In this document: piece by piece, positions 2,852 through 24,729 of the stretch | Position numbering within the stretch: position 1 is the stretch's first letter | How the letters are laid out: every line of letters begins with the position of its first letter | NCBI GenBank assembly: GCA_028284705.1 | Contig: JANQRE010000004.1 | Location: 62,001 to 126,000 of the forward strand | Length of the DNA: 64,000 nucleotides | DNA from: Paracoccaceae bacterium | Lineage (GTDB): Bacteria; Pseudomonadota; Alphaproteobacteria; Rhodobacterales; Rhodobacteraceae | Reading direction: 5' to 3' | Made by a program: the position numbers and the translations under genes | The notes under the pieces: generated by a model | What the model was told of the DNA's origin: nothing | Seen by the model: the letters and a program-made list of their open reading frames with translations, nothing else | The model's database searches: none

Positions 2852-3241
2852 TCAGAACAGCGCCGCGATCAGCATGATGATGGTCGCGAAAAAGCCCACG
2901 ATCCAGATTAGCGAGCGCCATGGCGCGAGGCCTTGGACATAGGCCGGGATGTAGAGCAGCCGGGCGATCAGGTAGATATGGGCGCAGGCTTGCGTGACCG
3001 GGGTCGACTGATCGGTGAGGGTGATCACGATGGCGGCGATTGCGAACATCACGAGGCCTTCGGTGTGGTTCTTGATCACCCGGTCGAGACGGCCTGAGGC
3101 GATGGGCAGTTTGCCGACATCATCACGGGGACCGAAGACGGTTTTGCGGTCGATCTGCATGTTGCCGACCACAGTAAAAAGCAGGATTTGCGCGACCTGC
3201 AGAAGGGCGGCGAGGGTGAGGATGTAAAGCTCGGTGGTCAT
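2852..3241 (-). CDS. MAPEG-family membrane protein
   Basis: A 129-residue integral membrane protein with about four hydrophobic segments. The MAPEG look is clear: an amino-terminal helix, then NMQIDRKTVFGPRDDVGKL, RLDRVIKNHTEGLVMF, and the pair RLLYIPAYVQGLAPWRSLIW. Families of this type include membrane glutathione transferases and related proteins of unknown substrate. The ATG at 3241 begins MTTELYILTLAALLQ; a longer frame upstream would read through the neighbouring zinc-ribbon gene. It lies 4 bp after that gene, and a paralog sits on its other side. Confidence 0.85.
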   Translation of the reverse strand: MTTELYILTLAALLQVAQILLFTVVGNMQIDRKTVFGPRDDVGKLPIASGRLDRVIKNHTEGLVMFAIAAIVITLTDQSTPVTQACAHIYLIARLLYIPAYVQGLAPWRSLIWIVGFFATIIMLIAALF

Positions 3242-3245
3242 GGGG

Positions 3246-3488
3246 TTACCAGATCCTCCTTTTGGCCAGATCGGCGAGCGTGGCGAATTCGGTCTCGCCA
3301 CAGGTCTTGCAGCTGACATATGGCTCGCCCTCGACCCGCGTCACCTCCCAGAGATCGCCGCCGAACATGGAATAGATCGGCGTGTCGCTGACCCGGCCAC
3401 CGGGCCCGACGGAACTGTCGGCGATGATCGTCTTCTCGGACGTGCCGCATTTCGGGCAGGTGATGGTGGTGCGGTTCGGGATCGCCAT
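3246..3488 (-). CDS. Small zinc-ribbon protein
   Basis: An 80-residue soluble protein with two Cys pairs, CPKC near residue 11 and CKTC near residue 60, which together would hold one zinc ion. Between them is a Gly/Ser-rich segment. No catalytic motif is visible. It is tightly packed between two MAPEG-family genes, with 4-bp gaps on both sides, so the three are almost certainly cotranscribed. It could be an assembly or regulatory partner of the membrane proteins. Its function is not recognised. Confidence 0.8.
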   Translation of the reverse strand: MAIPNRTTITCPKCGTSEKTIIADSSVGPGGRVSDTPIYSMFGGDLWEVTRVEGEPYVSCKTCGETEFATLADLAKRRIW

Positions 3489-3492
3489 GGGA

Positions 3493-3882
3493 TCAGAGCG
3501 CCATGAAGTAGAGCGCGATGGTGGCGAAGAAGCCGATGGTCCAGGCAAGCGAGCGGATGCCGGTGATCTTGAACGCGTAGGCGGGGAGGTAGACGACGCG
3601 GGCGGCGAGGAAGGCTTGGGCGGCGGTGAGGCTGGCGGCGCTCGATTGCTCGCGGAAGGCGATGATCAGCACCGCAGGCGCAAAGAGCGCCATGGCGGTG
3701 ACGGAGTTCGACAGCGCCCGGTCGAGCCGTGCGGCCATGCCCTGTGCCGTCAGCCCTTCGTCGCGGGAGGAGAGCAGGTAGCCCATGCCAAGCTGGTTCA
3801 TGGCGCCGGTGGCCTGCAGGACCAGCGTGATCGCGACGAGCAGGCCGTAAAGGGCGAGGATGGAGAGTTCGTCGGTGAGCAT
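3493..3882 (-). CDS. MAPEG-family membrane protein (paralog)
   Basis: A 129-residue membrane protein, the same length as the MAPEG gene at 2852 and clearly related: ARLDRALSNSVTAMALFAPAVLIIA corresponds to RLDRVIKNHTEG, and ARVVYLPAYAFKITGIRSLAW to RLLYIPAYVQGLAPWRSLIW. Four membrane segments are expected. First gene of a three-gene unit with the zinc-ribbon protein and the other MAPEG gene. The paralogs may form a heteromer, since MAPEG proteins are usually trimers; that is inference. Confidence 0.85.
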   Translation of the reverse strand: MLTDELSILALYGLLVAITLVLQATGAMNQLGMGYLLSSRDEGLTAQGMAARLDRALSNSVTAMALFAPAVLIIAFREQSSAASLTAAQAFLAARVVYLPAYAFKITGIRSLAWTIGFFATIALYFMAL

Positions 3883-3934
3883 TTTGTCCTCTTTGGTTGG
3901 GCGGGGTGGCTCCGGCCCTACATCTGGTTGTTTT

Positions 3935-3954
3935 GGTGGGCAGATTTGCCCACC
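3935..3954. terminator. GGTGGGCA/TGCCCACC hairpin
   Basis: A perfect 8-bp stem with loop GATT lies in the 90-bp gap between the MAPEG operon and the MtlR-like gene. Hairpins of this GGTGGGCA type recur in intergenic DNA of many proteobacteria, so it may be a dispersed repeat that also ends transcription. No strong U-tract follows on either strand. Confidence 0.4.
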
Positions 3955-3972
3955 CTACGATTGCTTGGATGG

Positions 3973-4481
3973 CTAAAGCTTCCAATTCTTGTCTTTGGTC
4001 GGGCTCTCTGCGACGTAGTGCGCGCGGTTGTAGAGTGCGTGGATGATTGAAACAGCCACCAGATTAAAACGTACCTGAGGTTCTTCGATCGAACTATCTT
4101 CTTTTTCGATTAGCTCCTTGAGCCCAAACGACATGCCCAAGACTCGTGTGCGAATTTTGTCATCATTCATGCTAATGGAGATCGAGTGAGCGAAATCATT
4201 TCGGATTTTCCGAATGAGCGAGATTTCTTCGAATTCCTCACTGTCAATTAGACCAAGCGCACGGCAAATATTGGCTTTGTTGAAGAACGAACTGAGGGCC
4301 GCATTCGGTCCGGAAAAAAGCGCGTCGGTTGCTGGATCACGTAAAAGAAAAGCCCTCAGTATTTCAGCTAGCATTTCGTCAACTTGCGCTGCTGCGACAA
4401 GAACTCTTCCTCGATCGGTCTCAGGATTGCTGGCCTTCAAATACCTAAGCAGTGGTTGATAGTACGGATCCGTAATTTCCA

Positions 4482-4482
<1 letters not shown>
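3973..4482 (-). CDS. MtlR/MltR-like protein
   Basis: A 169-residue helical protein. The segment NAALSSFFNKANICRALGLIDSEEFEEISLIRKIRNDFAHS resembles the mannitol-repressor (MtlR) core, where a helix pair ends in an R-N-x-x-A-H motif. The ATG at 4482 overlaps the odhB stop as TGATG, so translation is probably coupled; a GTG one codon upstream is also possible. Base composition is more AT-rich than the flanking enzymes, suggesting later acquisition. MtlR-type proteins lack an obvious DNA-binding helix, so calling it a transcription factor would be premature. Confidence 0.65.
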
Positions 4483-6062
<1,580 letters not shown>

Positions 6063-6065
6063 GGT

Positions 6066-9023
6066 TTACTTCCCTTCGATGGTCAGCGCGACATTCACCA
6101 GCGCTTCTTGTTCTGCTTTGTGACGAGAGGCCAACCCGGTGGCGGGCGAGGCGGAGGCGGAGCGACCGGCATAGCTGGGCCGTTTATGGGCGGCGTCGAT
6201 GCGGGTCAGGACCCATTCGATATTGGGCTCCATGAAGGTCCAGGCGCCCTGGTTCTTGGGTTCTTCCTGACACCAGACCATCTCGGCACTTTTGAAGCGT
6301 TCCAGTTCCTTCACCGCCGAGATCGCTGGGAAGGGATAGAACTGCTCGAACCGCATGATGTAGATGTCGTCGATGCCGCGGGCGTCGCGTTCCTCCAGCA
6401 GGTCGTAATAGACCTTACCCGAGCACATCACCACGCGTTTGATCTTGTCGTCCGCCACGAGTTTGGTCTCGGAATTGCCGTGCTGGGCGTCATCCCAGAG
6501 CACCCGGTGGAAGGAGGAGCCATTAGTGAATTCCTCCGCCTTCGAGATCGCGAGCTTGTGACGCAGCAGCGATTTCGGCGTCATCATGATGAGCGGTTTG
6601 CGGAAATCGCGGTGGATTTGCCGACGCAGGATGTGGAAGTAGTTCGCGGGGGTCGTGCAGTTCGCCACGATCCAGTTGTCGCCACCGCACATCTGCAGGA
6701 AGCGTTCCAGCCGAGCAGACGAGTGTTCCGGGCCTTGGCCTTCGAAGCCGTGCGGCAGCAGGCAGACAAGGCCCGACATGCGCAGCCATTTGCTCTCGCC
6801 CGAGGAGATGAACTGGTCGAACATGATTTGCGCGCCATTGGCGAAATCGCCGAACTGCGCTTCCCAGAGGGTGAGCGCGTTGGGTTCAGCCAGCGAGTAG
6901 CCGTATTCGAAGCCAAGGACCGCATATTCCGAGAGCATCGAGTCGATGACCTCGTATTGCGCCTGCCCGTCGCGGATGTGGTTAAGCGGGTAGAAGCGTT
7001 CCTCGGTGTTCTGATCCACAAGGCCGGAATGGCGCTGGCTGAACGTGCCGCGGGTGGAGTCCTGGCCCGCAAGGCGGACCTTGTGGCCCTCGGTCAGAAG
7101 CGATCCGAAGGCCAGCGCTTCGCCGGTAGCCCAGTCGAACCCTTCGCCGGTTTCAAACATCTTCTGTTTCGTTTCGAGCAGCCGCCCGACGGTCTTGTGC
7201 AGGGGGAAGCCCTCGGGCACGCGGGTCAGCGCGGCGCCAATCTCGGCCAGCGTCTCATCGGAGATCGCGGTCTTGCCGCGCTCGTAAGTCTCCTCATCAC
7301 GCTTATCGAGATGGGACCATTTGCCATCGAGCCAGTCGGCCTTGTTGGGGCGGTAATCCTTGCCAGCCTCGAACTCTTCATTCAGATGCGCCTGGAAGGC
7401 GGCTTTCATGTCCTCAATCTCGCCTTCGGGGATCAGCCCATCGGCGACGAGGCGTTCGGTATACAGCGTCAGGGTCGTCTTATGACCTTTGATCTTCTTG
7501 TACATGATCGGGTTGGTGAACATCGGCTCATCGCCTTCGTTATGCCCAAACCGGCGATAGCAGATGATGTCGAGCACCACGTCCTTCTTGAATTTCTGGC
7601 GGAACTCGGTGGCGACGCGGGCGGCGTGCACCACGGCTTCGGGGTCGTCGCCGTTCACGTGGAAGATCGGGGCTTCAACCATCAGGGCGATGTCGGTGGG
7701 GTAAGGTGAAGAGCGCGAGAAGTGGGGGGCCGTGGTGAAGCCGATCTGGTTGTTGACCACGATATGCATCGTGCCGCCGGTCTTGTGGCCGCGCAGACCG
7801 GAGAGGCCGAAGCCTTCGGCCACCACGCCCTGACCGGCAAACGCCGCATCGCCATGCAGCAGAATGCCCATCACCGCGGTGCGGTCGGTGTCGTTGAGCT
7901 GGTCCTGCTTGGCGCGCACCTTGCCAAGCACAACCGGGTTCACCGCCTCAAGGTGGGAGGGGTTCGCGGTCAGCGACAGGTGCACATTATTGCCGTCAAA
8001 CTCGCGGTCATGGGAGGCGCCGAGGTGGTATTTCACATCGCCCGAGCCGTCCACATCCTCGGGCTTGAAGCTGCCGCCCTGAAACTCGTTGAAGATCGCC
8101 TTGTAGGGCTTTCTCATCACATTGGCGAGTACCGAGAGGCGGCCCCGGTGCGGCATACCGACGACAATCTCCTGCAGGCCCAATTGCCCGCCGCGTTTGA
8201 TGATCTGCTCCATCGCCGGCACCAGCGCCTCGCCGCCGTCAAGGCCAAAGCGTTTGGTGCCCATGTATTTGACATGGAGGAACTTTTCGAAGCCTTCAGC
8301 TTCAACGAGGCTGTTGAGGATGGCCTTTCGGCCTTCGCGCGTGAAGGCGATTTCCTTGCCCAGACCTTCGATGCGTTCCTTCAGCCAGCCGGCCTGTTCG
8401 GGGTCGGAAATATGCATGTATTGCAGCGCGAAGGTACCGCAATAGGTGCGCTTCACGATGGCGAGGATTTCGCGCATCGAGGCCATTTCCAGGCCGAGAA
8501 CCTTGTCGATGAAAATCGGGCGGTCCATGTCGGCTTCGGTGAAGCCGTAGCTTTTTGGATCAAGCTCGGGATGCGGTGTCTGGTCGCGCATGCCAAGCGG
8601 GTCGAGATCGGCCACCAGATGTCCCCGGATCCGGTAGGCGCGGATGATCATTAGCGCGCGCAGGCTGTCGGTCACGGCACTCTGCACCGCATTGTCGGAG
8701 ACCTCGACGCCCTTTTCCGCTGCCTTGGCCTTGATCTTTTCGGCCGCCTTTTGCGGCTCGGCAGGCCATTGCCCATCCAGCGCGGCGGTAAGGTCGTCAT
8801 TGGGTTGCGGCGGCCAATCGGTGCGCGCCCAGCTTGGACCAGAGGCTTCCTTTTTGACATCCATCTCCGCATCGCCAAGCTGGCGGAAGAACTCCGCCCA
8901 GGCCGCATCGACCGCGTTTGGATCATTGGCGTAGCGGGCATAAAGCTGCTCCACATATTCCGCATTATGCCCCTGCAGGAAGGAGGAGGCATGGAACTGG
9001 TCGTTGGGAGATTGGTCGGTCAT
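6066..9023 (-). CDS. sucA: 2-oxoglutarate dehydrogenase E1
   Basis: The 985-residue thiamine-diphosphate enzyme decarboxylates 2-oxoglutarate and succinylates E2 lipoamide. An amino-terminal FLQGHNAEYVEQLYARY segment contacts the E2 core. Core signatures include VVGMPHRGRLSVLANV, GDVKYHLGAS, SLTANPSHLEAVNPVV, GDAAFAGQG and CYRRFGHNEGDEP. Length agrees with the family. The ATG overlaps the stop of the upstream DUF805 gene by 4 bp, and odhB follows 3 bp after the stop, so the three are one transcript. Confidence 0.97.
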   Translation of the reverse strand: MTDQSPNDQFHASSFLQGHNAEYVEQLYARYANDPNAVDAAWAEFFRQLGDAEMDVKKEASGPSWARTDWPPQPNDDLTAALDGQWPAEPQKAAEKIKAKAAEKGVEVSDNAVQSAVTDSLRALMIIRAYRIRGHLVADLDPLGMRDQTPHPELDPKSYGFTEADMDRPIFIDKVLGLEMASMREILAIVKRTYCGTFALQYMHISDPEQAGWLKERIEGLGKEIAFTREGRKAILNSLVEAEGFEKFLHVKYMGTKRFGLDGGEALVPAMEQIIKRGGQLGLQEIVVGMPHRGRLSVLANVMRKPYKAIFNEFQGGSFKPEDVDGSGDVKYHLGASHDREFDGNNVHLSLTANPSHLEAVNPVVLGKVRAKQDQLNDTDRTAVMGILLHGDAAFAGQGVVAEGFGLSGLRGHKTGGTMHIVVNNQIGFTTAPHFSRSSPYPTDIALMVEAPIFHVNGDDPEAVVHAARVATEFRQKFKKDVVLDIICYRRFGHNEGDEPMFTNPIMYKKIKGHKTTLTLYTERLVADGLIPEGEIEDMKAAFQAHLNEEFEAGKDYRPNKADWLDGKWSHLDKRDEETYERGKTAISDETLAEIGAALTRVPEGFPLHKTVGRLLETKQKMFETGEGFDWATGEALAFGSLLTEGHKVRLAGQDSTRGTFSQRHSGLVDQNTEERFYPLNHIRDGQAQYEVIDSMLSEYAVLGFEYGYSLAEPNALTLWEAQFGDFANGAQIMFDQFISSGESKWLRMSGLVCLLPHGFEGQGPEHSSARLERFLQMCGGDNWIVANCTTPANYFHILRRQIHRDFRKPLIMMTPKSLLRHKLAISKAEEFTNGSSFHRVLWDDAQHGNSETKLVADDKIKRVVMCSGKVYYDLLEERDARGIDDIYIMRFEQFYPFPAISAVKELERFKSAEMVWCQEEPKNQGAWTFMEPNIEWVLTRIDAAHKRPSYAGRSASASPATGLASRHKAEQEALVNVALTIEGK

Positions 9024-9574
9024 TGGGGGACCTCGTGGCTTTTCGGGGACGGTTTAGGTGGTTGATTTGGTTTGGCAGAAGCCCGCAATAAATTCGGCAA
9101 TGGCCACCCAAAAAGGACGACTAGGCCTATCGCCATGGCGAGGGCACTAGAGGGTGCGTTTTCCGGTTGGTTTGGGTTCAGCAGCACGGAAAGAAACATC
9201 ATCGGGCCGAATAGGAGCAACATGCCAACGCAGACGCACCCGCCTAAGCGGAAAACATCAAAAGTGTCATAAAAGGCAGGCTTTCCAATCCCGTAGAAAA
9301 TCAGAAATGAGACATTCGGAACTTGGGGGAATACATCGCGCTGCCTCCTTCGTGTGGCGCAAACGGCAGCCGGAAAGAAACACATCGCAACAAGGCCCGC
9401 CACAAGATAAGTATTACTGTCATTTTCGTGCATTGCGACCGCTTGAAAGTAACCGCAGATCGCCCCGACACAAAACAAGAACAGCACAAACCACCAAAAC
9501 TCGGGTCGCGTGGCGCGTCCAGACAGGGACCAAGTTCCTGTAAGTCCGGCATTTATGGCTTCAAGTGGCCCCAT
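9020..9574 (-). CDS. DUF805 family membrane protein
   Basis: A 184-residue membrane protein. The opening WSLSGRATRPEFWWFVLFLF matches the DUF805 signature (F/S-G-R-x-x-R-x-E-F-W) followed by the first membrane helix. Three more hydrophobic stretches follow, and the tail is Pro/Lys-rich (NQPPKPSPKSHEVPQ). MGPLEAIN at 9574 is the natural start. Its stop overlaps the sucA start as ATGA, so sucA is translationally coupled to it. The family function is unknown; nothing suggests a role in the dehydrogenase complex apart from position. Confidence 0.8.
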   Translation of the reverse strand: MGPLEAINAGLTGTWSLSGRATRPEFWWFVLFLFCVGAICGYFQAVAMHENDSNTYLVAGLVAMCFFPAAVCATRRRQRDVFPQVPNVSFLIFYGIGKPAFYDTFDVFRLGGCVCVGMLLLFGPMMFLSVLLNPNQPENAPSSALAMAIGLVVLFGWPLPNLLRASAKPNQPPKPSPKSHEVPQ

Positions 9575-9820
9575 CACACGCCTCCCGCCCGGAGGCAACG
9601 ACGGGCCGCGCCACGTCCGGCGCTCCGCGCGTTCGTGCCTGAAACCGTCCACTGGACGCTTTCCGAGGCGGCTCTCACCCTCCCCCCGGAGGGCGCGTTG
9701 GCGATGTCACTTACAGCCCGCGCGACATGGATGCTTTGGGGTACACACATAGAACATATTAAGCGAACGCCCTCCAGGTCGGGCGCGGCCCTCAGCGCAT
9801 ATGTCCGCGCGTTTCGCACT
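9575..9820 (-). other. Non-coding gap upstream of DUF805-sucA-odhB
   Basis: 246 bp between sucD and the DUF805 gene. The plus-strand segment around 9745-9765 is AT-rich (CATATTAAGC) in an otherwise GC-rich gap and is the best place for a promoter driving DUF805-sucA-odhB. No copy of the TGTGATCACA dyad, no strong terminator and no small gene were seen. Confidence 0.4.
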
Positions 9821-10762: not shown

Positions 10763-11224
10763 TCAGAATTTCCCTTGATGCACGGCCTCGCCGACCGGGA
10801 CGGAGACGGGGCGGATGCCGCTGACGGTCTTGTCAGGCACATTCGCGGTGGAGTTTTCGATTTCGAGCGGCGCACCGGCGCTCGGGCCATTGATCACCGA
10901 AACCGTCAGAACGCGACGCTCGACGATATCAACCTCGCAGAGCATCAGCGCCGAAAGCGCACCGACGACGTTGAGTGTGCCGTCATCGTTGGCCGTGCCG
11001 AAGCGTTGCGTGATCGGCGGGCGGGCATAGACGGCATAGCGTTCCAGATTGGTCTCGCGTAGCTCAAATGGCTGCGCTTCGATGGGCTCAAAGACGAAGC
11101 CCTGGCGTTCCAGCGTGACCGGAACGTTGCGCGCGAAGAATGCGCAAGCCTCTTCCGCTGTGGGTTCGGCCTGAGCCGACACCGCCCAAATGCTGGACAT
11201 GAATGCCAATGAAAACAAACGCAT
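10763..11224 (-). CDS. Small exported protein between sucC and sucD
   Basis: A 153-residue protein with a signal peptide ([19 protein letters not shown], cleavage expected after AQA). The mature part has two cysteines spaced far apart (EEACAFF and LMLCEVD), which could form a disulfide. No known domain is recognised. The ATG at 11224 was chosen because the signal peptide starts there; a TTG three codons earlier would overlap sucC. It lies between sucC and sucD in the same direction, so it should be expressed with them. Likely periplasmic. Confidence 0.75.
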
Positions 11225-11229
11225 AGACC

Positions 11230-12423
11230 TCAACCCTTCACGGCGGCGACGATCTTCTCGGCACCGTCCTTCAGGTCATCGGCGGCGATACAATCCACAT
11301 CCGAATTGTTGATGATCGCCTTGCCTTCTTCGACATTCGTGCCTTCGAGCCGCACCACAAGCGGTACTTGCAAGCCCACTTCCTTCACGGCGGAGACGAC
11401 GCCCTCGGCGATGACGTCGCAGCGCATGATGCCGCCGAAGATGTTGACCAGAATGCCCTTCACCTGCGGATCGGAGGTGATGATCTTGAAGGCCTCGGTC
11501 ACCTTCTCCTTCGTGGCCCCGCCGCCGACATCGAGGAAGTTGGCGGGCTCCGAACCATAGAGCTTGATGATGTCCATCGTGGCCATCGCAAGGCCCGCAC
11601 CGTTCACCATGCAGCCGATCTCGCCATCGAGCGCGATGTAATTCAGGTCGTATTTCGAGGCGGCAAGCTCCTTGGGGTCTTCCTCGGTCGTGTCGCGCAG
11701 CTCGGCGATGTCGGGGTGGCGGTAGACCGCATTGCCGTCGAACCCCATCTTCGCGTCGAGACATTTCAGATCGCCCTCATCGGTGACGATCAGCGGGTTG
11801 ATCTCCAGCATCTCCATGTCTTTTTCGATGAAGAGCTTGTAGAGCGTGCCCATCAGCCCGACGCATTGCTTCACCTGCTTGCCGGTCAGGCCCAGCATGA
11901 AGGCGATGCGGCGCCCGTGATAGGCTTGGTAGCCGGTGGCGGGATCGACGGAGAAGGAAAGTATTTTCTCGGGCGTTTTCTCGGCGACTTCCTCGATATC
12001 CATGCCACCCTCGGTGGAGCAGACATAAGAGACGCGGGAGGTTTGCCGGTCGACCAGCAGGGCGAGATACATCTCGCTTTCGATGCCGGAGCCATCCTCA
12101 ATATAGATGCGATTGACTTGTTTCCCGGCCTCGCCGGTCTGCTTGGTCACGAGAGTCCGGCCAAGCATTTTCTTGGCCTCGGTGGCGGCCTCTTCCACGG
12201 ATTTGGCCAGGCGCACACCGCCAGCATCGCCCGCGTCGGCCTCTTTGAAGGTGCCCTTGCCGCGCCCACCTGCGTGAATTTGCGCTTTCACCACCCAAAG
12301 CGGGCCATCGAGTTCACCTGCGGCGGTTTTGGCTTCTTCGGAGCGCAACACGACGCGGCCATCGGAGACCGGAGCGCCATAGCTGCGCAGCAGCGCCTTG
12401 GCCTGGTATTCGTGGATGTTCAT
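11230..12423 (-). CDS. sucC: Succinate-CoA ligase beta subunit
   Basis: 397 residues, the usual length. The amino-terminal ATP-grasp fold starts [16 protein letters not shown] and has [15 protein letters not shown]. The carboxy-terminal CoA-ligase domain carries [19 protein letters not shown] and [16 protein letters not shown]. With SucD it performs substrate-level phosphorylation in the TCA cycle. Two TGTGATCAC dyads 102-133 bp upstream of its start mark a probable regulated promoter in the gap towards mdh. Confidence 0.97.
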
Positions 12424-17975: not shown

Positions 17976-18074
17976 ATGCCGTCCAGGATTTCGGGCGGCC
18001 ATACTGAACCAAATTCAGGGCGCGGAAGACGTCCAGAGCAGATAGGATATGGATCAGATGAAACTGGTTTTTGA
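17976..18074 (+). CDS. Possible 32-codon leader ORF before the glycosyltransferase
   Basis: A short frame (MPSRISGGHTEPNSG...) starts 5 bp after a good AAGGTGAG ribosome-binding site and ends 17 bp inside the next gene if that gene starts at 18058. The next gene has only a weak site of its own (AGGA at 18044-18047), so coupled translation is possible. No similarity is recognised and it may be chance. Confidence 0.3.
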   Translation: MPSRISGGHTEPNSGRGRRPEQIGYGSDETGF

Positions 18075-18858
18075 GACGCGTTTTTCCTATATCGGCCACT
18101 CGGGCTGGAAATCCGAGGCGAGCAAGGATCCCGACCTTCTTTTTGCAGATGATCGTATGGCCTATCGCTTCGATCTTTTCTCCAAGATCACCTTGCCAAG
18201 CCTCGCCGAGCAAACCGATGAGGATTTTGATCTCCTGATCCTCACCTCGAAATTCATGCCGCAAAAACACAAGGAAGAACTGAGGCGCCTCTGTCACCGG
18301 TTCCTCGGGGAGGACCGCGTGCAAATCCTTGAGTTTGGCGCCTTCAAGGCGGGTCGTCTGTTCCGCAATCACGTCCGCGACACCTACGCCCAACACCCTT
18401 GGGTGGCTCAGGTGGTGCTGGACGATGACGATGCCGTCAGCGCGGATTTTGTCGAGGTCTGCAAGGCCGAGGCACGTAAGCTTGCAGCTTCGGAATATGA
18501 AGAGGATGACAGCCGTTTCCTCAGCTTTGCCCGCGGCTTCTCTTTGCAGGTCGAGAATGGGGTTCTGCAGAACCTCTCGCCCAAGCACTCACCTTACATC
18601 AATCTCGGTCTGACATTGGTGGCGCCGCCAACCACGTCGAAAAACCCGTTTCTCGTCAGCCATTTGGCGGTCGGTGAACGGCATCCGGGTTATGTCGTGA
18701 ACACGATCCGTCCGTTCTATCTGCGCACGGTGCATGATTTCAACGACAGCCGCACACCGCATAAGACAGCGTGGATTTCACCTGAGGAAATCGTGGAAGC
18801 CCAACGCTATTTCCCGTTCCTCAAAAATCACTTCAACACGCTGCCGATTGCGGCGTAA
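18058..18858 (+). CDS. Putative rhamnosyltransferase-type glycosyltransferase
   Basis: A 266-residue protein of the putative rhamnosyl transferase family. Seen are MKLVFETRFSYIG, then DRMAYRFDLFSKITLPSLAEQTDEDFDLLILTSKFMP (the GT-A-like opening), and VVLDDDDAVSADFV, an acidic cluster fitting a metal/nucleotide-sugar site. No membrane segment is visible. ATG 18058 has better spacing to AGGA than ATG 18049. It probably acts on envelope polysaccharide; the sugar is not known. Confidence 0.75.
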   Translation: MKLVFETRFSYIGHSGWKSEASKDPDLLFADDRMAYRFDLFSKITLPSLAEQTDEDFDLLILTSKFMPQKHKEELRRLCHRFLGEDRVQILEFGAFKAGRLFRNHVRDTYAQHPWVAQVVLDDDDAVSADFVEVCKAEARKLAASEYEEDDSRFLSFARGFSLQVENGVLQNLSPKHSPYINLGLTLVAPPTTSKNPFLVSHLAVGERHPGYVVNTIRPFYLRTVHDFNDSRTPHKTAWISPEEIVEAQRYFPFLKNHFNTLPIAA

Positions 18859-18949
18859 TCCGCGTCTGAGTCATCGCGCACCCACCTGCTGCGGCCAGAT
18901 CATCGGATTTTGAGGTTACATTCCGCGCGATCGGGCTAAAGTCGCGCCT

Positions 18950-19621
18950 ATGCGACTGATTTCCGCCGCCGTTTTTCTGGCGCTGACCCTGCCAACCCGA
19001 CTGCTCGCCTGCGATCTGGCCCTGATCCTGGCTGTGGATGTCTCGGGCTCCGTCGACAGTCGCGAATATCGCATCCAGATGGAGGGGCTGGCGGAAGCTT
19101 TGCGCGACGGTGCGATCTCCGAGGCGCTGGTGCGTGCCGAGGCCCATGTCATGCTGATGCAGTGGACGGGGTCTTCCCGCCAGCGGGTCTCGGTTCCCTG
19201 GACGCCGGTTGTCGATTTTGACATCGCCGACGCGCTGGCCGACCGGGTCGCGGCGACCCCCCGGGTCTGGCGCAACTTTTCCACGGCGATTGGCGAGGCG
19301 CTTCTGGTGGCACAGGAGGCTTTCACGGATGTCCCAAATTGCGAACGCCGCGTCATCGATGTTTCCGGCGACGGGTTCTCCAACGAAGGTGTGGAGCCGG
19401 ACGATGTGCGACTGACCCTTGGCGCTGGTGGGACCACCATCAACGCCTTGGTCATCGAAGAAAACGAGACCGGCCTCACGGAGTATTTCCGCACCAATGT
19501 GATCGTGGGCGCAGGCTCTTTCGCGGTGACGGCGGCTACGTTTGACGAATATCCCAAGCGGATTCGCCAGAAGCTTCTGCGGGAGATCACCGAGCAGGTC
19601 TCCTCCTTCGATTTGCCCTGA
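18950..19621 (+). CDS. DUF1194 exported von Willebrand factor A protein
   Basis: A 223-residue protein with a signal peptide (MRLISAAVFLALTLPTRLLA) followed by CDLALILAVDVSGSVDSREY, whose DxSxS is the metal-ion-dependent adhesion site of a vWA fold. CERRVIDVSGDGFSNEG forms the later metal loop. This matches DUF1194. It is periplasmic or secreted and of unknown partner. It ends at 19621, a few bases before the sdhC operator pair. Confidence 0.88.
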   Translation: MRLISAAVFLALTLPTRLLACDLALILAVDVSGSVDSREYRIQMEGLAEALRDGAISEALVRAEAHVMLMQWTGSSRQRVSVPWTPVVDFDIADALADRVAATPRVWRNFSTAIGEALLVAQEAFTDVPNCERRVIDVSGDGFSNEGVEPDDVRLTLGAGGTTINALVIEENETGLTEYFRTNVIVGAGSFAVTAATFDEYPKRIRQKLLREITEQVSSFDLP

Positions 19622-19653: not shown

Positions 19654-19780
19654 ATTTCCCGAATTTTCCGCAATTTGCGCCAATTGACCGCGCCTGTTTC
19701 CGCTCACATGGCGTGACACTCCCAAAATGCCGGGGCATAAAGGCATGAAAAATAACGGTAGCCAACGCCAAGGAGGCCGC

Positions 19781-20164
19781 ATGGCCGATGTTAACAGGGG
19801 CAATCGCCCGCTTAGCCCACATCTGCAGATTTATCGCCCGCAACTGACGTCCATGACGTCGATCCTGACCCGGATCACCGGCAACGCGCTTCTTGTGGCG
19901 GCGCTTTTGATCGTCTGGTGGTTTCTGGCGGCGAGTTACTCCGAGGAGTACTTCAACCTCGCCAATGCTGTGATCACGTCCTGGTTCGGCGATCTGGTGA
20001 TGTTCCTCTCGCTCTGGGCGATCTGGTACCACCTGCTCGCGGGGCTGCGGCATCTCTGGTGGGATTCAGGCCGCGGGCTGGAGTTGGAAGAGGCCGAGAA
20101 ACTCGGCTGGGTCGTTATCGGCGGATCGGTGGTTCTGACCATCCTGACCGCCTTGGCTTTGTGA
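19781..20164 (+). CDS. sdhC: Succinate dehydrogenase cytochrome b556 subunit
   Basis: A 127-residue membrane anchor with three helices. RPLSPHLQIYRPQLTSMTSILTRITG is the quinone-site opening, and YHLLAGLRHLWWDSG contains the heme-b-ligating His in the H-x-x-x-G-x-R-H-x-x-x-D pattern. An AGGAGG site precedes ATG 19781; an earlier in-frame ATG is less likely. First gene of sdhCDAB. A further TGTGATCACG copy lies inside the gene at 19969-19978. Confidence 0.95.
   Translation: MADVNRGNRPLSPHLQIYRPQLTSMTSILTRITGNALLVAALLIVWWFLAASYSEEYFNLANAVITSWFGDLVMFLSLWAIWYHLLAGLRHLWWDSGRGLELEEAEKLGWVVIGGSVVLTILTALAL
19969..19978. promoter_or_regulatory. Intragenic TGTGATCACG copy in sdhC
   Basis: An exact match to the operator core inside the sdhC coding sequence, about 320 bp after the upstream pair. 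It encodes Val-Ile-Thr in a membrane helix, so it may be chance or a secondary site. Confidence 0.3.
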
Positions 20165-20174
20165 GGAGCGCGCC

Positions 20175-20546
20175 ATGGCTTATCTGACCGACCGCAAACG
20201 CGCCGAGGGCATGGGCTCCGCCAAATCGGGGACGGAGCATCACTGGAACATGACGGTGTCCTCCGCGGCCTTGGTGATCCTGGTGCCGCTCTTCATCTTC
20301 ACCTTCGGGCGGATTTTGGGATCGTCTCACGCCGAAGTGCTCGCCTATTTCGCGCGGCCTTTCCCGGCGATCGTCGCAGGCCTCACCATCATCGTCGGTT
20401 TTTTGCATTTCAAAGGCGGTGTGCAGGTCCTGATCGAGGATTACGTGCACGGGACGCTTCGCAAACCGCTGATCATCGCGATGATCTGTCTTTCCTACGC
20501 TGCGGCGGGCACCGGGCTTTTCGCCATCGCCCGCATCGCGCTTTGA
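20175..20546 (+). CDS. sdhD: Succinate dehydrogenase membrane anchor subunit
   Basis: A 123-residue anchor with three helices. The start MAYLTDRKRAEGMGSAKSGTEHHWNMTVSSAALVILVPLF matches alphaproteobacterial SdhD. HFKGGVQVLIEDYVHG in the middle carries the D-Y pair that lines the quinone site. It starts 10 bp after sdhC with a GGAG-type site and is followed by sdhA. Confidence 0.93.
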   Translation: MAYLTDRKRAEGMGSAKSGTEHHWNMTVSSAALVILVPLFIFTFGRILGSSHAEVLAYFARPFPAIVAGLTIIVGFLHFKGGVQVLIEDYVHGTLRKPLIIAMICLSYAAAGTGLFAIARIAL

Positions 20547-20558
20547 TCGGAGGCCGAT

Positions 20559-22367
20559 ATGGCTGCTGAATACGAATATGAGACCCACGAATATGACGTG
20601 GTTGTGGTTGGCGCCGGTGGGGCTGGTCTTCGGGCGACGCTTGGCATGGCGGAGCAGGGGCTGCGCACGGCTTGCGTGACGAAGGTGTTCCCGACGCGCT
20701 CCCACACGGTGGCGGCGCAAGGGGGCATTGCGGCATCTCTGGGGAATATGGGCCCCGACAGTTGGCAGTGGCATATGTATGACACGGTCAAGGGCTCGGA
20801 TTGGCTGGGCGACACGGACGCGATGGAATATCTCGCCCGCGAAGCGCCCAAGGCGGTTTATGAACTAGAACATTACGGCGTGCCGTTTTCCCGCACGGAA
20901 GAAGGCAAGATCTACCAACGCCCCTTCGGTGGTCACACGACTGAGTTCGGTGAAGGCCCGCCCGTCCAGCGCACCTGCGCGGCAGCGGACCGGACCGGTC
21001 ACGCGATCCTGCACACGCTTTATGGTCAAAGCCTCAAGCAACAGGCTGAATTCTACATCGAATATTTCGCCATCGATCTGATCATGTCCGAGGACGGGCA
21101 ATGCACTGGCGTTCTCTGCTGGAAGCTCGATGACGGCACGCTGCATCTCTTCTCCGCTAAGATGGTCGTACTGGCCACGGGTGGCTATGGCCGGGCCTAT
21201 TTCTCGGCCACTTCGGCCCACACTTGCACCGGAGATGGCGGGGGGATGATTGCCCGCGCAGGGTTGCCGCTTCAGGACATGGAATTCGTGCAGTTCCACC
21301 CCACTGGTATCTACGGTGCGGGTTGCCTCATCACCGAAGGTGCACGGGGTGAAGGCGGTTACCTCACCAATTCCGAAGGCGAGCGCTTCATGGAGCGTTA
21401 TGCGCCGACCTACAAAGACCTCGCCTCCCGCGACGTGGTCTCGCGCTGCATGACGCTGGAAATCCGCGAAGGGCGCGGTGTCGGCGAGAATGGCGATCAC
21501 ATCCACCTTCACCTCAACCACCTGCCACCAGAGACATTGGCGCAGCGTTTGCCCGGTATCTCGGAAAGCGCGCGCATCTTCGCAGGCGTGGACCTCACCA
21601 AAGAGCCGATCCCGGTTCTGCCCACCGTGCACTACAACATGGGCGGCATCCCGACGAATTACTGGGGCGAGGTGCTGTCACCGACGAAATCCGATCCCGA
21701 CCGCGTCGCACCGGGCCTGATGGCCGTGGGCGAGGCCGGCTGTGCCTCCGTGCATGGTGCGAACCGACTGGGTTCAAACTCCCTGATCGACCTCGTGGTC
21801 TTCGGTCGCGCCGCGGCGATCCGCGCAGGGCAGATCGTCGATGCAGAAGCGCCGAATCCGCCGGTCAACCCGATCTCAGTCCAACGGGCCCTGGATCGCT
21901 TCGACAATCTCCGCCACGCAAAAGGCGCTGTACCAACCGCGGCGTTGCGTCTGGAAATGCAGCAGACCATGCAGGCCGATGCCGCTGTCTTCCGTACCGA
22001 TAAGACCCTCGCTGAGGGCGTGAAGAAAATGGACGGCGTCGCGGGCAAGATGGAGGACCTCGAAGTCACCGACCGCAGCCTCGTCTGGAACTCCGATCTG
22101 ATGGAGACGCTGGAACTCGCCAACCTCATGCCCAACGCGGTCGCCACCATCGTCGCCGCCGAGGCCCGCAAGGAAAGCCGCGGCGCGCATGCGCATGAGG
22201 ACTACCCCGACCGCGACGACAAAAACTGGCGCAAGCACTCGCTGACCTGGTTCAAGGGCATCAAACCCAAGCTCGACTATCGTGGCGTGCATCTCGATCC
22301 GCTCACCTCGCACAACGAGGGCGGCATCGATCTCAAAAAAATCGCCCCGAAAGCACGGGTCTATTGA
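20559..22367 (+). CDS. sdhA: Succinate dehydrogenase flavoprotein subunit
   Basis: 602 residues, full length. Covalent FAD is expected at the His of [16 protein letters not shown]. The FAD Rossmann loop is [20 protein letters not shown]. Substrate-site signatures are [23 protein letters not shown] and [22 protein letters not shown]. It oxidises succinate to fumarate and passes electrons to SdhB. Its TGA stop overlaps the start of the first lipoprotein gene (TGATG), so sdhB is not adjacent. Confidence 0.98.
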
Positions 22368-22687
22368 TGCGGAGTGGCGTTCTGACAGGAATCGTCTTTC
22401 TGGCCGGTTGCGCAACCGCGCCGTCCTCCGATCTGGAAGCCCCACAAGACGAGCCGACGCAAGCTGCAGAGCAGGCGCTGCGTGTCATGGCCGAGGCGCA
22501 GTTTCCGGGGCAGGATACAGGCGCGATTGCAAATTGCGGTATCCTCAACACCACAACGGAGGAGTTGCAGACCTTGGCGGGTTCGGCCACCGAAACCGAT
22601 GCATTCCTCGCGCGGGCAACCGCGGCGGGTGTGTTGTCCAAGCCCGAAACCCGCGCCTGCATGGCCTCAAACGGGATCGTCCTATGA
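22367..22687 (+). CDS. Small lipoprotein 1 of sdhA-sdhB insert
   Basis: A 106-residue lipoprotein: signal [15 protein letters not shown], with the lipidated Cys at residue 15. The mature part has AEQALRVMAEAQFPGQD, then NCGIL, and ends RACMASNGIVL, giving two extra cysteines. Three of the following genes share this plan. The start overlaps the sdhA stop and the end overlaps the next start by ATGA. Function unknown. Confidence 0.8.
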   Translation: MRSGVLTGIVFLAGCATAPSSDLEAPQDEPTQAAEQALRVMAEAQFPGQDTGAIANCGILNTTTEELQTLAGSATETDAFLARATAAGVLSKPETRACMASNGIVL

Positions 22688-22986
22688 GACCGCTCCTTGC
22701 GATAGCCATTTTGGCGTTAGCAGCCTGTGCCACTCCGTACCCGCCTATACAGACGGAATCACCAACTGTAACGGCTGAACAGGTTCTTATGTTTGTCGCA
22801 GAAGTTGAATATCCCGAAAGCGATGTTTGGGCATTTGCGGCATGTGGCGGCACTAGTCTATCGAGCGAGGAACGTTCGCGCTTGGAAGCCGTAAATACCG
22901 AGACAGAGGCGCGTGTTCTCGCTTTGGACGTAATCAATAAGCCGGATACAATTATGTGTCTTTCTAAGGAAGGGATCACATTATGA
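22684..22986 (+). CDS. Small lipoprotein 2 of sdhA-sdhB insert
   Basis: A 100-residue lipoprotein: MRPLLAIAILALAAC, with lipidated Cys15. Mature part: TAEQVLMFVAEVEYPESD, then ACGGT, ending IMCLSKEGITL, the same two-cysteine plan as lipoproteins 1, 3 and 5 but quite diverged. Base composition is more AT-rich than its neighbours. ATGA overlaps occur on both sides. Confidence 0.78.
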   Translation: MRPLLAIAILALAACATPYPPIQTESPTVTAEQVLMFVAEVEYPESDVWAFAACGGTSLSSEERSRLEAVNTETEARVLALDVINKPDTIMCLSKEGITL

Positions 22987-23330
22987 GACCGCTCCTCACC
23001 CTATCGATCCTGACCCTCGCCGCTTGCGAACCGACCACGCCGACCGTCTCTGACGTTCCAGGACCGGTTGTCGCCGACACCTATGTGGCACCGACCGACC
23101 CTGTCAGCCGTCAGGCCGAACAAACTCTGCGCGCCATCGCGGCCGCAAAATATCCCGGACAGGACGCCAGGGTGATCGGCAATTGCGGTATCCTCATCGC
23201 CAACGTGACAGAGATCGAAACCCTCGCCTCAGCCGGACCCGGTGTGCCGTCCTCCATCGCCATTGCCGATGCGGTCTTCGCCCGCAAGGAGGCGCAGGCC
23301 TGTATGAGCAGAAACGGGGTCACGTTGTGA
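22983..23330 (+). CDS. Small lipoprotein 3 of sdhA-sdhB insert
   Basis: A 115-residue lipoprotein: MRPLLTLSILTLAAC, lipidated Cys15. The first seven bases of the reading (ATGAGACCG) repeat those of lipoprotein 2, as in a duplication. The mature part has AEQTLRAIAAAKYPGQD, NCGIL and QACMSRNGVTL, closest to lipoprotein 1. It overlaps both neighbours by 4 bp. Confidence 0.8.
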   Translation: MRPLLTLSILTLAACEPTTPTVSDVPGPVVADTYVAPTDPVSRQAEQTLRAIAAAKYPGQDARVIGNCGILIANVTEIETLASAGPGVPSSIAIADAVFARKEAQACMSRNGVTL

Positions 23331-23626
23331 GATCGACCGCGCTCATATTGCTCCTGACGCTCGCGGCCTGCGCCCCGGTCCCGGTGACCCGCGACAAAGC
23401 CGAGGCGCTGTGTCTTGATGAGGTGCGTCAGGCCGATGGCGTCTCCGGCACGGTTGGTGTCGGCGTCGGTACGGGCGGGGCGAAAGCCAAGGGCTCGATC
23501 ACCGTGACCGACCGTGTGTTCAACCCGCAGACGGAAGAGGAATTCCTGGCCGAGTGCATCGACCGCCGGGTCAGCGGCAAACCGGCGCCGACCACTGTGG
23601 GCATCACCATCGGGGCCAAGACATGA
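23327..23626 (+). CDS. Small lipoprotein 4 of sdhA-sdhB insert
   Basis: A 99-residue lipoprotein starting with GTG inside the stop overlap GTGA. The signal RSTALILLLTLAAC places the Cys at residue 15. The mature part differs from the other four: VTRDKAEALCLDEVRQADGVSGTVGVGVGTGG, then ECIDRRVSGKPAPTTVGITIG. It has its own two cysteines and a Gly-rich strand region. No family recognised. Confidence 0.75.
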   Translation: MRSTALILLLTLAACAPVPVTRDKAEALCLDEVRQADGVSGTVGVGVGTGGAKAKGSITVTDRVFNPQTEEEFLAECIDRRVSGKPAPTTVGITIGAKT

Positions 23627-23937
23627 GACACCTGCTCCTCCTGATCCCCTTCGCCCTTGCCGCCTGCGACACGCCGCTTGCCGATCAGATCGCCCGCGAT
23701 CAGGCAAAGAAGGCGGTGAACCCCGTGCTCGCGCAACGCTTCCCCGGCGTGCCGCTGGAGCCCGCCACAAACTGCGTGATCGACAATGCCAGCGCGTCGG
23801 AAATTATCCAACTTGCCAAAGCCGGGACGACGACCGTCAGCCAGACGGATGTCAACCTGATCATCGAGATCGCGACCCGTCCCGACACCATCACATGTCT
23901 GCTTGAGGACGGCATCACGCCGTTCCTGAACGCTTAA
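23623..23937 (+). CDS. Small lipoprotein 5 of sdhA-sdhB insert
   Basis: A 104-residue lipoprotein: MRHLLLLIPFALAAC, lipidated Cys15. The mature part (AKKAVNPVLAQRFPGVPLEPATNCVID, ending ITCLLEDGITPFLNA) again follows the plan of lipoproteins 1-3. It overlaps lipoprotein 4 by ATGA and ends 12 bp before sdhB, whose own site follows, so the series is cotranscribed with sdhB. Confidence 0.8.
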   Translation: MRHLLLLIPFALAACDTPLADQIARDQAKKAVNPVLAQRFPGVPLEPATNCVIDNASASEIIQLAKAGTTTVSQTDVNLIIEIATRPDTITCLLEDGITPFLNA

Positions 23938-23949
23938 GGAGCCTCATCC

Positions 23950-24729
23950 ATGGTTCAACTGACCCTGCCAAAAAACTCCCGCATCCAGACCGGGAAAACC
24001 TGGCCCAAGCCTGAGGGCGCCACGAATGTGCGCAAGTTCCAGATCTATCGCTGGAACCCCGATGACGGGAAGAACCCGCAGGTCGACACCTATTTCGTCG
24101 ATCTCGACAAATGCGGGCCGATGATCCTCGATGCGCTGATCAAGATCAAAAACGAGATCGACCCGACGCTGACCTTCCGCCGCTCCTGCCGCGAAGGCAT
24201 CTGCGGCTCCTGTGCGATGAATATCGACGGGATCAACACGCTGGCTTGCATCTATGGCATGGATGAAATCCAAGGTGATGTGAAGATTTACCCGCTGCCG
24301 CATATGCCGGTGGTCAAGGACCTGATCCCCGATCTCACCCATTTCTACGCCCAGCACGCGTCGATCATGCCGTGGCTGGAAACGAAGACGAACCGTCCGC
24401 AAAAGGAATGGAAGCAGTCGATTGAGGACCGCGAAAAGCTCGACGGGCTTTATGAATGCGTGATGTGTGCGTCCTGCTCCACCTCCTGCCCGTCCTACTG
24501 GTGGAACGGTGACAAATATCTCGGCCCCGCCGCGCTTCTGCACGCCTATCGCTGGATCATCGACAGCCGCGACGAGGCCACGGGCGAACGGCTCGATGAC
24601 CTCGAAGACCCGTTCAAGCTCTACCGCTGCCACACCATCATGAACTGCACGAAGACCTGTCCGAAGGGGCTCAACCCCGCCAAGGCGATTGCGCAGATCA
24701 AGAAGATGATGGTGGAACGGGTGGTTTAG
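23950..24729 (+). CDS. sdhB: Succinate dehydrogenase iron-sulfur subunit
   Basis: 259 residues, full length. The [2Fe-2S] ligands are in [15 protein letters not shown], the [4Fe-4S] and [3Fe-4S] ligands in [16 protein letters not shown] and [21 protein letters not shown]. It carries electrons from SdhA to the quinone site. A GGAG site precedes ATG 23950. It ends the operon and is followed by a large palindromic element. Confidence 0.98.

Follow-up and report, generated by a model that had tools for sequence, protein, structure and literature searches.

What are five small lipoprotein genes doing inside the succinate dehydrogenase operon, between sdhA and sdhB? The question is raised by a 64,000-nucleotide stretch of DNA from a Paracoccaceae bacterium (assembly GCA_028284705.1, contig JANQRE010000004.1, positions 62,001 to 126,000, forward strand; source genome 4.04 Mb), analyzed here at its full length and called the window. 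On its plus strand, the gene order is sdhC, sdhD, sdhA, genes 1-5, sdhB. Genes 1, 2, 3 and 5 are members of one protein family (A), and gene 4 is a member of another (B). The distribution of these families, and of the unrelated genes that occupy the same place in related genomes, suggests an answer: the sdhA-sdhB junction is probably a passenger site, where additional genes ride on sdh transcription and translational coupling.

An initial annotation, made from the DNA letters, had described five genes between sdhA and sdhB (22367-23937) joined by stop/start overlaps, and this description holds. The sdhA stop codon (22365-22367) overlaps the ATG of gene 1 by 1 nucleotide (nt); the four junctions among genes 1-5 are 4-nt ATGA/GTGA overlaps; and 12 nt separate the gene 5 stop from the sdhB ATG at 23950. 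The lengths given there (99-106 codons, with one gene of 115) are likewise correct, at 106, 100, 115, 99 and 104, as is the placement of the lipidated cysteine at residue 15 of all five window products. Each product carries a short lipobox signal peptide in which LAG or LAA precedes Cys15. A scan of the plus strand of the window's sdhA-sdhB gap for terminator-like sites found none.

A core respiratory operon would be expected to be frozen. Here, the survey of sdhA-sdhB gaps that had been proposed as a check of the annotation finds one junction open in about four-fifths of the sampled genera. The sample comprised 150 genomes of the bacterial family, one per genus, with SdhB present in 145, including that of the window. 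Upstream stretches were taken for 140 of the 144 other sdhB genomes, leaving out G013, G016, G049 and G083 as well as two second sdhB-like matches; L140 and L150 were unmeasurable, giving 139 measured stretches with the window among them. Of the 139, 111 have an sdhA-sdhB gap of 250 nt or more, 1 has a gap of 150-250 nt and 27 have one below 150 nt; the maximum is 4422 nt. The other junctions of the operon rarely or never widen: the sdhD-sdhA gap exceeds 150 nt in 4 of 133 stretches (L042, L102, L112 and L122, 418-450 nt) and the sdhC-sdhD gap in 0 of 130, so the opening is specific to sdhA-sdhB. Outside the family, 20 of 41 candidate loci were taken and 19 were measurable; the sdhA-sdhB gap is 11-57 nt in 17 of these, 131 nt in one and 1477 nt in one. 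The last is filled by a 261-codon gene that differs from A and B (L198, 223-1008, minus strand, which is the sdh strand) and whose product, from its look, may be of the ClpP class.

What occupies the junction is mixed. Locus states were scored for 136 of the 139 stretches (L088, L123 and L128 were dropped for a short sdhA), with a large insert defined as a reading frame of at least 180 amino acids (aa). The junction is empty in 26 loci; it holds A and B in 24, A only in 19, B only in 15, only large inserts in 21, large inserts together with A and/or B in 21, and other contents in 10.

The two lipoprotein families are closely tied to this one position. When the 150 family genomes were searched and match positions were compared by eye with those of sdhB, the A profile gave 70 matches in 60 genomes, 69 of them directly upstream of sdhB; the remaining match is in G120, a genome without an sdhB match. 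The B profile gave 53 matches in 52 genomes, 50 of them at the site; one of the others is again in G120, and two are weak fragments elsewhere in G029. In a class-wide sample of 241 genomes, among the matches listed, A occurs in 3 and B in 2, all from the window's own family, and the 237 genomes of other families (assigned by list order) have neither. All 82 A and 57 B genes recovered from the surveyed stretches lie within the sdhA-sdhB gap in the direction of sdh; ten of these loci had been included for their gene 5. In 52 loci, sdhA is followed directly by an A or B gene; the overlap with the sdhA stop is kept in 43 of them, by 1 nt in 36 and by 4 nt in 7.

Presence on the sdhA tree is also structured. 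Family A (n=60) requires 32 changes against 44.6 in shuffled data, and family B (n=50) 29 against 40.7, with 0 of 200 shuffles as low in either case. Empty loci cluster weakly (21 changes against 24.1; 6 of 200 shuffles as low). Large inserts (n=42) do not cluster and turn over quickly: 38 changes were counted against a shuffled mean of 35.7, with 180 of 200 shuffles as low.

The other lodgers are largely enzymes. Among 79 of the 84 other inserts that were scanned against Pfam, the commonest matches are methyltransferases (10), sulfotransferases (6), polysaccharide pyruvyl transferase (3) and FkbM methyltransferase (3), with glycosyltransferase families and an O-antigen ligase domain found once or twice each. 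For one sulfotransferase subfamily, 6 of 14 genome matches are at the junction and 8 elsewhere, as judged by eye against sdhB positions. The guanine-plus-cytosine (GC) content of large inserts averages 3.3 points below that of the local sdhA (59 inserts, standard deviation 4.9), and that of A and B averages 1-2 points above it. Both the tree clustering and the contrast in site tie indicate that residents (A and B) and visitors behave differently. An association of the enzyme cargo with A or B was considered and rejected (Fisher p 0.58 and 0.12). Side observations at the junction include extra short lipoprotein-like frames (88, 89, 137 and 141 aa) in the gaps of the genus relatives L161, L162, L166, L173, L174 and L178, and, in some of these, a frame between lipoprotein genes that may encode an FkbM-type methyltransferase.

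A passenger site accounts better than an accessory of succinate dehydrogenase for the combination seen here: preference for a single junction, retained overlaps, lodgers of unrelated kinds and residents with a patchy distribution. Under this proposal, genes lodged at the junction would be transcribed with sdhCDAB and translated through stop/start coupling, presumably in action here, which would let extra genes precede sdhB without cutting sdhB off. A and B would be long-term residents, and sulfo-, glycosyl- and methyltransferase genes would be transient visitors. In the window, gene 4 and the old A copy, gene 5, would be the residents, with genes 1-3 a young expansion. Judging from sequence, the products are probably exported lipoproteins that carry their lipid on Cys15 and have their anchor in the envelope. 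The modeled domain of family A is small and all-helical, and its pair of conserved cysteines may form a disulfide; B carries two conserved cysteines as well. We infer an envelope role for A and B from their signal peptides alone; their function may be to support the envelope as the cell grows on respired carbon, and not to take part in succinate dehydrogenase catalysis. The junction would then be a natural experiment for studying how foreign genes are accommodated in operons.

Several observations weigh against this proposal. A and B are almost never found elsewhere, which favors either a connection with sdh or a strong constraint on their position. They occur together in 31 loci, beyond expectation (Fisher p 0.002), and are neighbors in 29 of the 31; the co-occurrence is not significant in relationship-corrected pairs. 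Their inter-genus distances do not follow those of sdhA (Spearman 0.05 for A and 0.18 for B, within permutations); nearest neighbors agree with sdhA above chance (18 of 60 for A and 16 of 50 for B, with about 3 expected). Finally, 3 promoter-like matches were found against a shuffled mean of 1.5 (standard deviation 1.2), a number not clearly beyond chance; two of these lie within the gap on the plus strand, so internal promoters may be present.

The strongest competitor, which we regard as rather unlikely, is that A and B assist complex II or the respiratory membrane as lineage-limited accessory proteins, docking on the periplasmic side of SdhCD or aiding its heme or quinone site. Its best support is the site tie itself (69 of 70 A and 50 of 53 B matches at sdhA-sdhB). 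The overlaps of A and B genes with sdhA would also agree with such a function, as would the gene-5-type copy present in all 19 genus relatives, which is under purifying selection. Aspartate directly after the lipidated cysteine (+2) is an inner-membrane retention signal in E. coli lipoproteins, and it is present in gene 5; however, this residue is found in a minority, 14 of the 79 A proteins with a lipobox and 2 of the 57 B proteins. Lipoproteins would also lie on the opposite side of the membrane from SdhAB, and the same site is used by unrelated enzymes. The known factors SdhE and mitochondrial SDHAF are small, soluble, tied to complex II and located on the SdhA/SdhB side; A and B, unlike these factors as generally described, carry lipoprotein signal peptides. 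Near-universal co-occurrence with sdh, as expected of a complex II subunit or assembly factor, is not seen: A is present in 60 and B in 50 of the 136 genus representatives, leaving 76 and 86 without them, and 26 of the 136 junctions are empty. A lineage-specific complex II factor would be compatible with such patchiness. The initial annotation had proposed an envelope role tied to respiration. Given the same absences, the unrelated genes that share the spot and the insert-free junctions of 17 of the 19 loci from other families, this tie is not shown; A and B may or may not have a direct part in respiration. The case counsels caution in inferring function from operon neighborhood.

A second possibility, which we consider unlikely, is that the junction is a family-wide cassette-exchange site, operating by homologous recombination through conserved flanks shared with the relatives, around two site-bound lipoprotein families acting together with the respiratory membrane. 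Envelope-glycan genes might then be swapped in and out of a coupled position with strong expression; gene transfer agents, for which this bacterial order is known, would be one possible vehicle. If so, tricarboxylic acid (TCA) cycle operons would be a shared expression locus for surface traits.

The identity of the two families rests on profile searches. The A profile was built from 76 sequences, none from the window or from L006 (the same genome as L168), and the B profile from 56 sequences without the window; E-values are scaled to 10000 sequences. The A profile matches gene 5 (E 5e-38), gene 1 (1e-16), gene 3 (2e-13) and gene 2 (1e-12), and the matches persist for the mature parts (4e-32, 6e-14, 4e-11 and 5e-7, respectively). 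Gene 4, which the initial annotation had called unrelated to the rest, is indeed so, with E 0.07 to the A profile and 8e-30 to the B profile (8e-23 for its mature part); the B profile matches gene 2 at E 0.012. A single superfamily of A and B is not supported: their profile comparison gives 94% probability over 34 columns only, which cover the signal peptide and the residues just behind it, and the rest does not align. The single plan suggested for the other four genes stands insofar as genes 1, 2, 3 and 5 are one family; its AEQ motif, however, is limited to genes 1-3, with AKK in gene 5, where the C-terminus is GITPFLNA and not GITL.

The lipoprotein assignment made for the window genes extends to their relatives, with a lipobox in 5 of 5 window genes, 79 of the 82 A genes and 57 of the 57 B genes, counts that lean high because the start chooser favored lipoboxes. 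Residue 15 is not a family rule; the lipidated cysteine lies at positions 11-36 among relatives, mostly 14-17. Exactly two further cysteines follow it in 77 of the 79 A proteins with a lipobox and in 56 of the 57 B proteins, and the two of family A are invariant in a 50-row alignment. The family A model, computed for gene 5, is confident, with a predicted local distance difference test score of 84.8, and has five helices in the mature part; a comparison with PDB gave no clear structural match. None of the five window proteins matches Pfam or NCBIfam at its curated cutoff. The relatives were scanned at E 0.01 with alignments holding 50 of the 82 A copies and 46 of the 57 B copies: none of the B relatives matched, and the A relatives gave single-member matches only (2 Pfam and 4 NCBIfam families). 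Gene 1 resembles the Lpp/OprI alanine-zipper lipoprotein (NF040598) in being a small, Ala-rich lipoprotein, with E 0.0004 and 21 bits, under the curated cutoff of 43 bits. Unlike Lpp/OprI, with its one long zipper helix, family A has the conserved cysteine pair and a five-helix model. Other origins were considered: phage genes (best PHROGs match no better than E 0.006) and defense genes (PADLOC without a match at E 0.1) found no support. Two uncharacterized lipoprotein families gain a testable home.

Genes 4 and 5 evolve under purifying selection, by a rough estimate. Among gene 5 orthologues, the median ratio of nonsynonymous to synonymous divergence (dN/dS) is 0.215, from 82 usable pairs out of 190; for gene 4 orthologues it is 0.245 (68 of 136), compared with 0.063 for sdhA (143 of 190). 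The values are rough because dS is close to saturation. Spurious open reading frames (ORFs) are rejected on the held-out profile matches and, for genes 4 and 5, on these ratios. The ratios also bear on the idea that the genes are stowaways of little benefit to the cell, kept because sdhB would suffer from many of the losses or frameshifts that could occur here, so that core neighbors shield small genes. Overlaps between insert and sdh genes, patchy presence with many changes on the tree, and the fast divergence of genes 1-3 (long branches) would be consistent with this idea. Yet genes 4 and 5, with a dN/dS near 0.2, seem to have a selected function, to which the cysteine pairs kept across both families also point, and the 26 empty junctions among 136 imply that clean loss is possible. 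We judge the idea distinctly improbable.

The window's genes differ in age. Among genus relatives with an sdhB match, a gene-5-type copy is present in 19 of 19 and B in 16 of 19, the rest being variable; gene 1 has an orthologue in one of the 19 (L168). In a tree of 45 A copies, gene 5 falls among genus copies (support 97/97 for its nine-row set), and genes 1-3 group with the first L168 copy in a single clade (96/94). A single clade of all four window A copies, as a fresh tandem burst would give, is rejected (approximately unbiased test, p 1e-80). Duplication thus took place at two different times and not in a single tandem burst: the old A copy of the genus is gene 5, and genes 1-3 arose more recently by duplication of a second A type, with their branching order unsure owing to the long branches of genes 2 and 3. 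The duplication proposed in the initial annotation is thus supported for genes 1-3; a single tandem origin of all four A copies is not. The repeated ATGAGACCG start that the annotation cited is exact in genes 2 and 3 alone. In their first 15 nt, 14 positions are identical, a level seen in 0.0002 of between-locus pairs; across 41 neighboring A/B pairs, within-locus likeness of starts is slightly raised (7.5 versus 6.6 of 15). Gene 2 has 49.8% GC and a third-position GC (GC3) of 0.45, compared with 62-67% and 0.70-0.82 in the other four genes. It was overlooked by a first codon-bias gene caller, and no orthologue was seen in the genus; it is either a much-changed duplicate or an import through the short repeat. 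That genes 1-3 are decaying or spurious, with only genes 4 and 5 functional, would accord with the deviant GC3 of gene 2 and its weakest family score (mature part), with the long branches of genes 2 and 3 and with dN/dS not being computable for genes 1-3, but is very improbable, as all three keep an open frame, a lipobox and both cysteines, were found by a profile without window sequences, and include one, gene 1, with an orthologue in a genus relative.

Operons can be mosaic, with genes inserted or displaced inside them. The passenger site resembles mosaic operons in placing foreign or unrelated genes in a conserved operon; it differs in that one junction of one operon is reused family-wide, with two families staying and others turning over.

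The initial annotation knew of no described system of this kind, a statement that needs correction. Non-conserved genes within sdhCDAB of Roseobacter members were reported in 2012 (Christie-Oleza et al., PMC3305630), so that inserts in this operon are already known as a phenomenon. SPO_PG016 in sdhCDAB and SPO_PG006 in sucCD were described there as inserts of Roseobacter TCA operons, said to be absent from other bacteria; the R. pomeroyi sdh insert was found by proteogenomics, and its co-transcription with SPO0360 and SPO0361 was detected by reverse-transcription PCR (RT-PCR) (PMC3305630). The extent of sdh inserts receives one sentence in that article, and the word lipoprotein does not occur in its main text (PMC3305630). 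SPO0360a, entered as a new hypothetical ORF in a reannotation of 2014 (PMC4334477), is by our inference the same gene as SPO_PG016. The window genes resemble the 2012 inserts in lying inside sdhCDAB in the sdh direction, and the overlaps here, together with the RT-PCR in R. pomeroyi (PMC3305630), suggest by analogy that they are co-transcribed with sdh. A literature search that left subscription journals mostly uncovered found no paper on lipoprotein families A and B. Added here are these families, their site tie, the enzyme cargo, a measure of how common the inserts are across genera, and a control from the remaining sdh junctions.

Coordinates of the operon features are collected in Table 1; sdhC and sdhD are presumed identities, taken from gene order.

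Table 1. Succinate dehydrogenase genes, lodged genes and start repeats, in window positions.
Feature	Position	Strand	Remarks
sdhC	19727..20164	+	ORF as listed; true start probably further in
sdhD	20175..20546	+	identity from gene order
sdhA	20559..22367	+	602 aa
gene 1	22367..22687	+	family A lipoprotein, 106 aa, Cys15
gene 2	22684..22986	+	family A lipoprotein, 100 aa, Cys15, GC 49.8%
14-nt repeat ATGAGACCGCTCCT, first copy	22684..22697	+	start of gene 2
gene 3	22983..23330	+	family A lipoprotein, 115 aa, Cys15
14-nt repeat, second copy	22983..22996	+	start of gene 3
gene 4	23327..23626	+	family B lipoprotein, 99 aa, GTG start, Cys15
gene 5	23623..23937	+	family A lipoprotein, 104 aa, Cys15
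sdhB	23950..24729	+	259 aa

Other TCA gene gaps also contain lodgers. In the window, a 156-aa protein with a signal-like N-terminus is encoded between sucC and sucD (10763-11233, minus strand). The sucC-sucD gap exceeds 150 nt in 11 of 20 family genomes checked, in agreement with the sucCD inserts reported in 2012 (PMC3305630). The sucC-sucD frames of the 20 genomes include neither A nor B, and several of the wide gaps encode small secreted-looking proteins that match neither family. Elsewhere in the window, a DUF805 protein lies between sucD and sucA (9020-9652, minus strand); two MAPEG-family proteins and a HEPN-like frame, the latter below cutoff, lie between sucB and lpd (2852-4485, minus strand); and a putative rhamnosyl transferase (PF11316) and a DUF1194 protein lie directly upstream of sdhC (18049-19621, plus strand).

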